Virus record (IMG/VR): IMGVR_UViG_3300028734_000019
Location: 1-64,000 of that record
DNA from: a virus
DNA length: 64,000 nucleotides
Direction: 5' to 3' (one strand)
The translations under genes were made by a program, and so were the position numbers. Positions 13,641 through 58,144 of the stretch are shown here, piece by piece (within the stretch, counting starts at the first letter, position 1; each line of letters begins with the position of its first letter). The notes beneath the pieces were generated by a model. That model did no database searches. It saw only the letters and a list, made by a program, of their open reading frames with translations, and was not told the origin of the DNA.

Positions 13641-14404
13641 TTCAATTTCTCAAATCTCCATTTAAAGTAATAATAGTCATTGTTTTCTATATGATAAGTA
13701 TCTTCATTTACTTTCATTATAATATATGGCTTGTTATTACTATTGATATTATATCCTAAAATCTCAACTACTTTATTTTCATTTATTTCGTATAATTTAC
13801 CAATATTATTTTTTACTTTAGTTTCATTTTTCATATTTTTATAAAAACCTTGATCTGGAATGAACCATTTTTCCAATTTCTTATAAAAATAATTACTTAA
13901 TTTTAGTTTATACTCACTATCAAATCTATATAAGTATTCTGGATCAAAATATACTTCAGATTCAAGTGTTGGCCTTATTAATCCATTATAGTTTCTGAAC
14001 ACTCCAAAGTATTCTTCTTTATCAAATTCAAATGATATAAACACATCTAATTTTAAACTATTATTTTCATATATTCTTAAAATTTTGATATTATCGTATA
14101 ATTCGATATCTTCTAAAAAAGGATTACTATCTTTATAAATTAAATTATTTTGACCACGTAAGCTTTTTATTACTCTATCTAAATTCGATACTAATCCAGA
14201 TTGTCTTGCATAAAAATCAGTGTAAGGACTGTCTTGATAATTATAATATGAAGCACCTGGATCCATAGCAAATGCAAAGTCTCCTCCCCCTCCAGCTGTA
14301 CCCATTGGTTCGATTCCGAATTGAAATTGTTGAAATTCAGAATCTTCTGTTATAAGATTTGCTTCCTTTAAAAATGAATATCTACTATATTTTAATACTT
14401 TCAT
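13637..14404 (-). CDS. Candidate internal head or structural protein
   Basis: 255 residues beginning MKVLKYSRYSFLKEANL; the L-K-E-A matches the L/I-x-E cleavage rule of T4 prohead protease and resembles T4 capsid-targeting sequences. It then has a Gly-rich region (GTAGGGGDFAFAMDPG, about residues 36-51), common in phage head proteins, followed by an alpha/beta body. Ends KWRFEKLK. Expected to be processed and packaged, by inference from the N-terminus. Confidence 0.6.
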   Translation of the reverse strand: MKVLKYSRYSFLKEANLITEDSEFQQFQFGIEPMGTAGGGGDFAFAMDPGASYYNYQDSPYTDFYARQSGLVSNLDRVIKSLRGQNNLIYKDSNPFLEDIELYDNIKILRIYENNSLKLDVFISFEFDKEEYFGVFRNYNGLIRPTLESEVYFDPEYLYRFDSEYKLKLSNYFYKKLEKWFIPDQGFYKNMKNETKVKNNIGKLYEINENKVVEILGYNINSNNKPYIIMKVNEDTYHIENNDYYYFKWRFEKLK

Positions 14405-25773: not shown

Positions 25774-25848
25774 TTATTTAATTTTTTAATTTTAAGTTTA
25801 TTAATTAACTTATATATAAAATTAAATTAGTCCAAATTGATTTTTTTG

Positions 25849-25920
25849 TATGCCTAGAAGGACTCGAACCTTCAACTCATCATCCGTAGTGATACGTGTT
25901 ATCCATTACACTATAAGCAC
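25849..25920 (-). tRNA. tRNA-Arg (ACG)
   Basis: Acceptor GTGCTTA/TAGGCAT (with two G-T pairs), D-stem GTGT/ACAC, anticodon stem TATCA/TGATG with loop CTACGGA giving anticodon ACG, T-arm GAAGG-TTCGAGT-CCTTC. No encoded CCA. Confidence 0.9.
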
Positions 25921-27475: not shown

Positions 27476-27543
27476 ATTTTTTTTATTTATATATAAATAG
27501 TGATAATTATATAAATAATATAAATTGTATTAAATATTTTTTG

Positions 27544-27626
27544 TGGTACTAGTTGGGCTCGAACCCACAACCTCCGAAGAGATCAGTTTTACATACTGAC
27601 ATGACTACCTGTGTCATATTAATCAC
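27544..27626 (-). tRNA. tRNA-Tyr (GTA), imperfect acceptor
   Basis: Anticodon stem TCAGT/ACTGA with loop ATGTAAA (anticodon GTA), D-stem TGAC/GTCA, a long variable arm (TCTC-TTCG-GAG) as in tRNA-Tyr, and a T-arm with one mismatch. The acceptor pairs only 5 of 7 positions (GTGATTA against TAGTACC), so this may be a decaying copy; two better Tyr genes exist nearby. Confidence 0.6.
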
Positions 27627-27635
27627 ATATTTTTG

Positions 27636-27760
27636 TGGTAGCAGATGGACTCGAACCATCAACTTCTGAGACATCGGCCCAGCACTCTATCCTTCGCTCG
27701 TTTCAAATTATTTATTCTAGTTTCATAATTATCCCCTTTGTGCTTTTGAGTTACACTACC
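27636..27760 (-). tRNA. tRNA-like gene with a 60-nt D-loop; anticodon position GAT, C33
   Basis: Perfectly placed arms: acceptor GGTAGTG/TGCTACC, D-stem ACTC/GAGT, anticodon stem CTGGG/CTCAG, variable AAGTT, T-arm GATGG-TTCGAGT-CCATC, total 125 nt. The D-loop is about 60 nt instead of 7-11 and contains its own AATTAT/ATAATT inverted repeat. The anticodon loop CCGATGT has C instead of T at position 33. Either an intron-like insertion or a broken gene. Confidence 0.55.
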
Positions 27761-27773
27761 TTGTTGTTTATTG

Positions 27774-27852
27774 TACTGCCGAAGGGACTTGAACCCTCAT
27801 ACACCAATTACCTTGTTAATGACTGGATATAAGCCAGTGGGGATACGACAGT
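27774..27852 (-). tRNA. tRNA-like gene without a normal D-arm; anticodon TAT
   Basis: Perfect 7-bp acceptor ACTGTCG/CGGCAGT and T-arm GAGGG-TTCAAGT-CCCTT. Only 7 nt (TATCCCC) separate the acceptor from a perfect anticodon stem ACTGG/CCAGT with loop CTTATAT (TAT, Ile ATA codon). A 23-nt region follows in place of the short variable loop and contains AAGGTAATTGGT, similar to the same region of 27866-27942. Total length 79 is normal for a tRNA. Confidence 0.55.
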
Positions 27853-27865
27853 GTGTTTTTTATTG

Positions 27866-27942
27866 TTGGTGAAGTGGGAATTGAACCCACATGTGACCAA
27901 TTAACCTTTCTACTACTTATCAGGCAGAGGGTATATTCACCA
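27866..27942 (-). tRNA. tRNA-like gene without a normal D-arm; anticodon position GAT
   Basis: Perfect acceptor TGGTGAA/TTCACCA and T-arm GTGGG-TTCAATT-CCCAC. The spacer between acceptor and anticodon arm is 7 nt (TATACCC). The anticodon hairpin is CTGC-CTGATAA-GTAG (4 bp). A 21-nt region with AAGGTTAATTGGT replaces the variable loop. Same unusual plan as 27774-27852. Confidence 0.5.
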
Positions 27943-27953
27943 ATGTTATTTAG

Positions 27954-28027
27954 TAGTCCTGGTGAGACTTGAACTCACGACCTCCATCTTATCAGGATGA
28001 CAATCTAACCGACTGATATACAAGACT
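27954..28027 (-). tRNA. tRNA-Ile (GAT)
   Basis: Canonical: acceptor AGTCTTG/CAGGACT, D-loop AGTCGGTTA, anticodon stem TCATC/GATGG with loop CTGATAA (GAT), T-arm GTGAG-TTCAAGT-CTCAC. Confidence 0.9.
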
Positions 28028-28350: not shown

Positions 28351-28436
28351 CGGTTCTGAGGAAAGTCGAATTCCCTATATCCCTTACGAGAAGCCTGAGT
28401 GACAGTCAGGTACACCAGCCGTTATGCGCCAGAACC
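28351..28436 (-). tRNA. tRNA with Asp anticodon (GTC) but a long variable arm
   Basis: Acceptor GGTTCTG/CAGAACC, anticodon stem CCTGA/TCAGG with loop CTGTCAC (GTC, C38 as in tRNA-Asp), discriminator G, T-arm GGGAA-TTCGACT-TTCCT. The variable region is about 18 nt (86 nt in total), as in class II tRNAs (Ser, Leu, Tyr), which is not expected for Asp. The upstream HNH gene ends inside the 5' part of this tRNA. Confidence 0.75.
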
Positions 28437-56749: not shown

Positions 56750-58144
56750 TTAGAATTTTTTCATCTTTTGATAAGAAACTTCATTTCTTTCGTTGTTACG
56801 TTGCTTATCTTTCTTTTTTTGCTCTTTCTTATCTTTCCAAGATGTACCTTCAGATTTATCTTTTATGTTTAAGATTGGTTTTATTTTATCAAGAATTAAT
56901 GCAGTAGGCTCGATAGCTTTTTCAATCATATCAGAGTTTTTGTAAGCAAATGGTGATTCATCAATTGTACTTTTACATACAGATGTTGAATATATACCTT
57001 TCATTACTTTCTGAAAATCTTTTAAATCAATTGACTCTTTTGCTTTTGATCTTGACATCAAACGACCAGACCCATGTGGTGCTGAGTTGTTCCAATCTTC
57101 ATTTGATTTACCTTCGCATATAAGTATTCCATCTCTCATATTGAATGGTATAATCATTTTTTCACCAACATAAGATGAGATTGCACCTTTTCTTATGATA
57201 AAATCTTTGAAATCAACATAGTTATGTATTGAATGAATTTCTTCATCAAACTTTTTGATATTCAATGCTTTTTTTATCAATGATAACATTGTTTTTCTAC
57301 TCCATAGAGCATATTGTTGAGCAAAAATCATATCAAATAGATATCCAATAAGATACTCACCATCTAAATATTCTTTGTCAATATTAAGACTGTATCTTGT
57401 CCTTAATTCTTTTATTTTTTTATCAATATCAGATTTAGGATAAGTATTCATTGTAATGTCATCCAATTCCATGTTATATTCTTTGGTTGCAACGAATACT
57501 TTACCTCTTGCAACTTTAGTCCAGTATTCCGCAATTTTAAGTCCAAAGTTTCTTGACCCAGAGTGGACTGTTACCCAATAATCATTAGTCTTATCTGACT
57601 TACCAAGTTCAATAAAGTGGTTACCACCTCCTAATGTACCAATAGATTTGTAAAATTTACCTTCATCAATTCCAATATCTTTCAATTTAGATGTTAGCCA
57701 TTTATCATTGTATGATGGAGAATCATAAGATGTCCCAAATTTTTCGTTAAATTTTACAATGAAGTTATCTGCAATTACTTGAACATCACCAAAAGGGATA
57801 TTTTTAAATTTGATATCTTCGTGCATACCAAATCCCATAGGAACATTTTCACGTATCAGATTATCAATTTTTTCTAAATCTAATGTGGTTCTACCTGAAA
57901 ATCTAGCACTTAGCATCCCGCAGCCGATATCCACACCTATAGTGCTTGGTTTGAGATACTTACCCAATTCCATGGAAAACCCAATACAAATATCTGAGCC
58001 AACATGCACGTCTGGCATTAGTCTGACTTTCAACCCATTAGATGTTTCTGAGTTAATGACATTGTATATTTGTGTATAGACTCCTTCTTCAACTTCATCT
58101 ATAAATATTTTAGCGTCTGTATATTTACCTTTTAACTCAATCAT
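56750..58144 (-). CDS. rtcB: RNA ligase RtcB
   Basis: 464 residues, complete. Conserved blocks: DVHVGSDICIGFSME (N-terminal), VGVDIGCGMLSARF (metal-binding Asp/Cys), GGGNHFIEL (metal/His), VHSGSRNFG, and APHGSGRLMSR (the guanylated active-site His and P-H-G-x-G-R loop). RtcB joins 2',3'-cyclic-phosphate or 3'-phosphate RNA ends to 5'-OH ends with GTP and Mn, repairing cleaved tRNAs and, in archaea and animals, joining spliced tRNA halves. Its own promoter is at 58197-58226. Probably counters tRNA-cleaving host defence; a role on the abnormal tRNAs of this phage is a hypothesis. Confidence 0.93.
   Translation of the reverse strand: MIELKGKYTDAKIFIDEVEEGVYTQIYNVINSETSNGLKVRLMPDVHVGSDICIGFSMELGKYLKPSTIGVDIGCGMLSARFSGRTTLDLEKIDNLIRENVPMGFGMHEDIKFKNIPFGDVQVIADNFIVKFNEKFGTSYDSPSYNDKWLTSKLKDIGIDEGKFYKSIGTLGGGNHFIELGKSDKTNDYWVTVHSGSRNFGLKIAEYWTKVARGKVFVATKEYNMELDDITMNTYPKSDIDKKIKELRTRYSLNIDKEYLDGEYLIGYLFDMIFAQQYALWSRKTMLSLIKKALNIKKFDEEIHSIHNYVDFKDFIIRKGAISSYVGEKMIIPFNMRDGILICEGKSNEDWNNSAPHGSGRLMSRSKAKESIDLKDFQKVMKGIYSTSVCKSTIDESPFAYKNSDMIEKAIEPTALILDKIKPILNIKDKSEGTSWKDKKEQKKKDKQRNNERNEVSYQKMKKF

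Follow-up and report, generated by a model that had tools for sequence, protein, structure and literature searches.

Two tRNA-like genes, t1 and t2, lie next to each other on the minus strand within positions 27774-27942 of the window, the 64,000-nt stretch of DNA analysed here, which comes from a virus record of 76 kb and has a GC content of 24.6%. Both are located inside the minus-strand tRNA array of the window (approximately 25.8-30.2 kb), in which a canonical tRNA-Ile(GAU) is followed, on the same strand, by t2 and then by t1 (Table 1). An earlier note on this DNA had described two adjacent tRNA-like genes, each with the anticodon arm placed directly after the acceptor strand. The presence of the two genes is borne out by their sequence, by the scores of the Rfam tRNA model and by conservation in relatives; the 7 nt between acceptor strand and anticodon arm and the total lengths of 79 (t1) and 77 (t2) hold as well, whereas the acceptors, said to be perfect, do comprise 7 bp in both genes but include one G.T pair in t1. 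The Rfam tRNA model assigns 31.1 bits to t2 and 29.4 bits to t1, both above the gathering cut-off of 29, and ARAGORN, a check proposed in the note, calls neither gene on the window. In the Rfam alignments inspected (the window t2, and the identical t1 and one-base-different t2 of the related locus L003), the D-arm is deleted and an insert of 18-20 nt is put in the variable region.

Table 1. Features of the window discussed in the text; parts of t2 and t1 are listed with their tRNA numbering.
Feature	Position	Strand	Remarks
t2, permuted tRNA	27866-27942	minus	anticodon GAU (Ile); 77 nt including A73
t2, sequence			TGGTGAA TA T ACC C T CTGC CTGATAA GTAG T AGAAA GGT T AATTGGTCACAT GTGGG TTCAATT CCCAC TTCACCA A
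t2, acceptor 5' strand TGGTGAA	27936-27942	minus	7 bp with 27867-27873
t2, D-stem 3' strand TACC (22-25)	27930-27933	minus	precedes the anticodon arm; positions 23-25 pair with 10-12 at 27904-27906; homologues show covariation of this helix
t2, anticodon arm TCTGC CTGATAA GTAGT	27912-27928	minus	T27.T43 mismatch; GAT at 27919-27921; 4-bp stem of this type covaries among homologues
t2, variable region AGAAA	27907-27911	minus	nGAAA in 143/143 class I genes, GAAA being pattern-fixed
t2, D-stem 5' strand GGTT (10-13)	27903-27906	minus	transposed to 3' of the variable region; covaries with 23-25
t2, transposed D-loop and linker AATTGGTCACAT	27891-27902	minus	A14, G18, G19, T20 ... T48; homologue columns
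t2, T-arm GTGGG TTCAATT CCCAC	27874-27890	minus	from sequence; covaries
t1, permuted tRNA	27774-27852	minus	anticodon UAU (Ile); 79 nt including A73; longer variable region CATTAACA
t1, sequence			ACTGTCG TA T CCC C ACTGG CTTATAT CCAGT CATTAACA AGG T AATTGGTGTAT GAGGG TTCAAGT CCCTT CGGCAGT A
t1, D-stem 3' strand TCCC (22-25)	27840-27843	minus	23-12 and 24-11 Watson-Crick; 25-10 is C.A
t1, anticodon arm ACTGG CTTATAT CCAGT	27822-27838	minus	anticodon TAT at 27829-27831
t1, D-stem 5' strand AGGT (10-13), transposed	27810-27813	minus	layout as in Yaboi 86686 and L033 5269
t1, transposed D-loop and linker AATTGGTGTAT	27799-27809	minus	from sequence
t1, T-arm GAGGG TTCAAGT CCCTT	27782-27798	minus	from sequence
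Canonical tRNA-Ile(GAU)	27953-28027	minus	directly upstream of t2; ARAGORN; Rfam 58.0 bits
Ordinary tRNA-Arg(ACG)	25848-25920		ARAGORN
tRNA splicing ligase RtcB family protein	56750-58144	minus	phrog_1075, E 1.4e-116

The earlier note had likened both genes to D-armless mitochondrial tRNAs in which a segment of 21-23 nt replaces the variable loop. The lengths of this segment (21 and 23 nt) are correct, but it holds more than a variable region: it comprises the variable region, the 5' strand of the D-stem and the D-loop. The nucleotides following T8-A9 pair with those 3' of the variable region, directly 5' of the AA..GG motif; judged from sequence, the D-arm is permuted, not missing, its strands being located in the 7-nt spacer and after the variable region. 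The order of segments is acceptor / D-stem 3' strand - anticodon arm - variable region / D-stem 5' strand - D-loop / T-arm, that is 1-9, 22-47, 10-21, 48-73 in tRNA numbering (the D-loop and linker numbering of t2, with A14, G18, G19, T20 and T48, is an assignment made in this analysis). The likeness to D-armless tRNAs is thus incomplete, since a D-arm is present with its strands exchanged and its helix covaries; the proposal that the GG-bearing segment stands in for the D-loop proved correct. The observation of the note is real and its interpretation partly supported. The layout of t1 recurs at Yaboi 86686 (D strands TCGC/GCGT, variable region CGTTAACA) and L033 5269 (TCCC/GGGT), with which t1 has its longer variable region (CRTTAAYM) in common.

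The arrangement is wider than these two genes: it defines a family in many phages. A first pattern, combining the shared segment with the T-loop, retrieved 38 viral stretches, 31 of which, judged by eye, contain complete tRNA-like genes built in the same way. With t2 as BLAST query, 81 phage records were found to carry the gene (RefSeq duplicates counted): 77 of Streptomyces phages, Kehishuvirus 'tikkala' (crAss-like), bajarodcaudo virus 1 and two of uncultured phages. The four records examined (Jay2Jay, EGole, Yaboi and StarPlatinum) are Stanwilliamsviridae. The crAss-like phage cr130_1, found with a different query, also carries a relative, bringing to two the crAss-like phages with relatives.

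For a systematic survey, two class I patterns, with either the D-stem or the anticodon left free, were scanned over phage collections. Class I comprises at least 146 distinct genes, or at least 143 after three with weak acceptors (L155, L206, L218) were dropped, and 118 of the 143 come solely from loci fetched by these two scans, which fixed neither any of the six D-stem positions 10-12/23-25 nor the T-loop. The patterns did fix T8-A9, C26, T27.T43, U33, GAAA, A14-A15 and G18-G19, so that invariance at these positions is not independent. Class II, identified with both a model and a pattern, comprises 65 genes with a longer linker that ends in AAAT. Its scan returned 97 stretches with 102 pattern places, 66 distinct fits and 29 places without a fit; most of the 25 no-fit places viewed resemble coding sequence, yet L285, L317, L330 and L350 are member-like, the acceptor rule having missed them or the sequence being cut. 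The fit in L289 was dropped as it is without D pairs, which leaves 65.

Covariance model R1 was built from class I representatives, 61 of 62 being aligned and one L206 copy left out; its E values are roughly calibrated. R1 assigns 94.9 bits to t2, whose twin in L001 belongs to the training set, and it finds t1, which does not, with 54.2 bits (E 4.6e-12). To canonical tRNAs of the window, R1 gives 23.2 and 17.7 bits. With a further model, R2, matches taken as permuted lie above a gap, at 44 bits or more, the exception being a truncated L206 copy (36.9). A match in L195 (39.8 bits) falls below this gap and was rejected, ARAGORN calling it tRNA-Leu; other sub-gap matches reach at most 33.3. Scanning the loci and the window with a descriptor yielded 146 candidates, and none on reversed or complement-only strands; one of the 146, in L018 (Phe AAA), is a canonical tRNA by eye and was rejected.

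The permuted genes keep company with ordinary tRNA genes: a canonical tRNA lies no more than 1 kb away from 182 of 217 occurrences (some contigs counted twice), and in 182/182 cases it is on the same strand. Among 1,189 bacterial genomes in three phyla (395, 396 and 398), one convincing class I match was obtained, in the seed genome. In the phylum of the seed MAG, 29 of 395 genomes pass E 0.001 with R1 and only the seed genome exceeds 33.3 bits; in the two other phyla, sets without a positive control, 0/396 and 0/398 genomes pass E 1e-6. These bacterial runs used stricter filters and scored 12 candidates per genome. A pattern scan of genome contigs returned 47 stretches, of which only L075 is member-like by eye; its contig (147,646 bases) is apparently a phage contig in the MAG, with the same tRNA as the viral L016 contig (147,693). 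The family looks phage-borne, occurring in phages whose recorded hosts are Streptomyces and Bacteroides. In the open-access literature searched, no description of such tRNAs was found.

Carriers mostly lack annotation of the permuted genes, and at 60 places listed the sole annotation is a tRNA-Leu in EGole, in both its records. ARAGORN calls overlap 4 of the 217 occurrences, three of which are read as Ile(UAU). The EGole gene (L094 2495-2571), a tRNA-Leu (codon UUA) in GenBank, has the permuted reading Ile(GAU), and Yaboi 86686-86764 (L283 487-565), a tRNA-Val(aac) in GenBank, has the permuted reading Arg(UCU) with anticodon TCT. Judging from these overlaps and annotations, counts of tRNAs in phages are probably too low, and the genes sometimes carry a wrong label.

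The permuted D-helix is a consistent property of class I. Pairs 10-25, 11-24 and 12-23 are standard in 413 of 414 instances in 138 equal-length sequences, compared with a mean of 285.4 and a maximum of 306 in 2000 shuffles (a test that treats related sequences as independent), in 428/429 in all 143 genes and in 354/354 in the 118 scan-only genes. All three pairs are Watson-Crick in 140/143, and 12 different stems are seen, with few near variants: TCTC/GAGT, TCCC/GGGT, TACC/GGTT, TCGG/CCGT, TCCG/CGGT, TTCC/GGAT, TCCT/AGGT, TAAC/GTTT, TAGG/CCTT, TCGC/GCGT, TCAC/GTGT and TCCA/TGGT; pair 13-22 is T.T in 136/138. In the 61 representatives, the D-helix is 99.5% paired and all three of its pairs vary on both sides, pairing over the whole structure reaches 97.8% versus 37-47% in slid controls, and compensatory changes occur in all four helices, acceptor and T stems included. 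Parsimony counts 8, 29 and 16 pair-state changes in the D-helix on a tree made without the D columns, and RNAalifold, without prompting, returns exactly the permuted structure. The sizes of the elements are standard, with two nucleotides at 8-9, D strands of four positions and, in class I, a five-nucleotide nGAAA variable region; the transposed D-loop of class I carries A14, G18 and G19, all pattern-fixed. The T-loop of the 118 scan-only genes has T54 in 116, T55 in 118, C56 in 118 and A58 in 116.

An alternative fold with a conventional D-arm, which the note had put forward as the way to overturn its reading, can be drawn for 0/143 homologues and for neither window gene, versus 857/940 ARAGORN tRNAs of the same loci; what does not stand is the premise of the note that the D-arm is absent. 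Class II is less regular: in a fixed register, 27 of 66 fits have just two of three Watson-Crick pairs at 10-12/23-25, and 49 of 65 genes have at least three pairs among the four positions 10-13. When 7 permuted RNAs were folded singly, the minimum-energy structure had the permuted D-helix in 2 of them (t2 and L092) and lacked it in t1; with weak folding z-scores (-1.06 for t1, -1.50 for t2), energy alone would have missed the permuted helix.

In close relatives, both genes are retained while their surroundings drift. L001 and L002 contain identical copies of t1 and t2. In L003-L005, t1 is identical at 79/79 and t2 at 76/77 positions versus 87.4% over the 594-nt aligned region around the genes, the spacers differ and a nearby protein is 88% identical; together with the R1 match to t1, this near-identity despite drifting flanks indicates that t1 and t2 are more than chance. 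In the more distant L006 (78%), t1 and t2 were found neither by BLAST nor by R1 across the whole 140 kb record, and an ordinary tRNA-Ile(UAU) lies in their place between tRNA-Ile(GAU) and tRNA-Tyr. With R2, a permuted tRNA-Arg(ACG) is found in L003 (51.6 bits) and L006 (50.9 bits), whereas the window has an ordinary one (Table 1); in the record to which the window belongs, t1 and t2 are the only R2 matches above 27 bits.

The anticodons of the 143 class I genes are UAU (94), GAU (37), CAU (11) and UAC (1); the CAU members are read as Ile2 by context and may alternatively be Met. Class II (65) includes Arg members with UCU (23), UCG (11), ACG (6) and CCU (3), Ile members with GAU (15) and UAU (4), and genes with CAU (2) and CUU (1). 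Nucleotide 20, which follows the GG of the D-loop, is linked to isotype: it is A in 43/43 Arg genes, all of class II, versus 2/165 others of both sets (Fisher 1.3e-42, relatedness ignored), and within class II alone in 43/43 Arg genes versus 2/22 others (Fisher 8e-15, relatedness likewise ignored). The two non-Arg genes with A20 are Ile members. Nine further hand-listed Arg members, obtained as model matches, also have A20, and a tenth (L003 12955) is without the GG. A73 is present in 143/143 class I genes and in 150/150 Ile genes of both sets (131 + 19). PMC9976931 names A20 as the main determinant of arginine identity in E. coli and gives, for isoleucine, the discriminator, the anticodon and positions including D20; T73, found in 22/43 class II Arg members, lies outside the A/G73 set given there and speaks against charging. 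The isotype-specific nucleotide 20 is the best evidence for charging and for normal placement of the D-loop: A20 at the transposed site suggests that the D-loop occupies its usual place and is read by ArgRS. Ile codons are mostly AUA (47%) and AUU (47%) and 78% of Arg codons are AGA (43 of 78 listed window ORFs), and in view of this heavy use by the phage a supply of Ile and Arg tRNAs makes sense.

We consider t1 and t2 to be, very probably, working phage isoleucine tRNAs (UAU and GAU) with a rewired backbone connectivity. The D/anticodon domain would be circularly permuted and inserted in the acceptor/T domain: the chain would run from the acceptor strand through T8-A9, position 22, the D-stem 3' strand, position 26, the anticodon arm and the variable region to the D-stem 5' strand (10-13) and the D-loop (14-21), and then into the T-arm. 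The D-helix is predicted to form and to stack on the anticodon arm, with the GG of the D-loop expected to dock on the T-loop, so that the L shape, the elbow and the identity nucleotides would be kept although three backbone connections would differ from those of standard tRNA. Tertiary contacts of tRNA bring together positions 9 and 23, 45 and 10, and 15 and 48; an L shape is plausible since the three new backbone joints would link residues that are neighbours in folded tRNA. The contacts G18-Psi55, G19-C56 and U8-A14 are described in PMC7609411. The RNAs would presumably be matured by RNase P and CCA addition, charged by host IleRS (ArgRS for the Arg members) and used in decoding of Ile codons. 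On a broader scale, it is likely that the family represents a phage lineage of fully functional domain-permuted tRNAs that retained the L shape together with synthetase identity, came to be spread among phages with distant hosts and branched into Ile, Arg and Val members, perhaps escaping host tRNA-cleaving defences or quality control.

A different use of the same permuted fold is conceivable but unlikely: instead of serving elongation, the RNAs could act as decoys or signals, for example by baiting host anticodon nucleases or tRNA-sensing defences. The sampled bacterial chromosomes gave no convincing match, the permuted genes sit in phage tRNA arrays and the RtcB-like RNA ligase of the window phage is a possible repair enzyme for cut RNA, all of which would suit such a role; the isotype-linked nucleotide 20, the invariant A73 of the Ile genes and the covarying acceptor and T stems, on the other hand, are what charging needs, and the anticodons fit heavily used codons. 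Somewhat less credible still is a mitochondrial-like D-armless tRNA with an extended anticodon stem and the AATTGGT segment as a long variable region. The helix of the two D strands can formally be drawn as an upper anticodon arm, and the Rfam model does align t1 and t2 without a D-arm; yet the segment keeps the order and content of a D-arm (a stem strand, then AA..GG), has A20 in Arg members and rarely elsewhere, and retains the T-loop partners. That the gene alone is permuted and its RNA is cut and religated by RtcB to standard order, in the way the permuted tRNA genes of algae and archaea are restored by ligation, is very improbable in spite of the RtcB family protein, given that the acceptor ends are already in normal order, that restoring the order would require two internal segments to swap places and that the permuted helix covaries as it stands. 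Decay into pseudogenes after tRNA-gene rearrangement, of which the damaged Tyr-like gene of the array might be a sign, is refuted for the family, whose 143 distinct homologues show compensatory changes in each of the four helices, and deserves hardly any credence for t1 and t2, which are conserved while their flanks diverged.

Textbook tRNAs share one common strand order. With canonical tRNA (RF00005), the permuted tRNAs have in common a 7-bp acceptor, a 5-bp T-arm with a TTCRA loop and an anticodon arm with a 7-nt loop and U33 (pattern-fixed in the scans); with tRNA-Ile and tRNA-Arg in particular, they share the D-loop GG and, respectively, A73 and A20. They differ from it in that the D-stem strands are exchanged, that no D-arm hairpin separates the acceptor strand from the anticodon arm, that the D-loop lies between variable region and T-arm and that the junction is three-way instead of four-way. 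The circularly permuted tRNA genes of algae and archaea also have a non-standard order of segments, but there the 3' half lies upstream of the 5' half and the permutation affects the gene and is reversed by processing, whereas in t1 and t2 the acceptor strands are in standard order and an internal domain would be permuted in the RNA itself. The term 'circularly permuted tRNA' is named in PMC13092985. The D-armless mitochondrial tRNA-Ser(AGY) (type III; PMC7609411) likewise has few nucleotides between acceptor and anticodon arm, but the permuted genes have a D-helix, a D-loop and a normal length of 77-79 nt. Allo-tRNAs, non-canonical tRNAs known from metagenomes in which the UAU anticodon is frequent, have 8/4 or 9/3 stems (same source), in contrast to the 7/5 stems found here.

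These genes would be a natural family that breaks the standard tRNA strand order, a reading supported by compensatory changes in more than 100 sequences. If it is true, the translation machinery reads the L fold and not the path of the chain, which would support the view of tRNA as two joined domains; cultured Streptomyces phages make the role of backbone connectivity directly testable.

The array of the window holds further unusual tRNA-like sequences. At approximately 28351-28436 (minus), a tRNA-like sequence was recognized by eye that has a long variable region and, in the loop CTGTCAC, a GTC anticodon; it received no call from ARAGORN or Rfam. At 27543-27626 (minus) lies a Tyr-like tRNA whose acceptor stem is damaged; ARAGORN calls its L003 counterpart (14167-14250) tRNA-Tyr. 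Next to it, a tRNA-like gene at 27636-27760 (minus), also present in L003 (14260-14384, minus), has the acceptor GGTAGTG/TGCTACC and an extra-long D-loop stretch of 57 nt, compared with 4 in the Rfam model; the copies of the two phages are near-identical by eye, and Rfam aligns the whole tRNA model to that of L003 with 39 bits.
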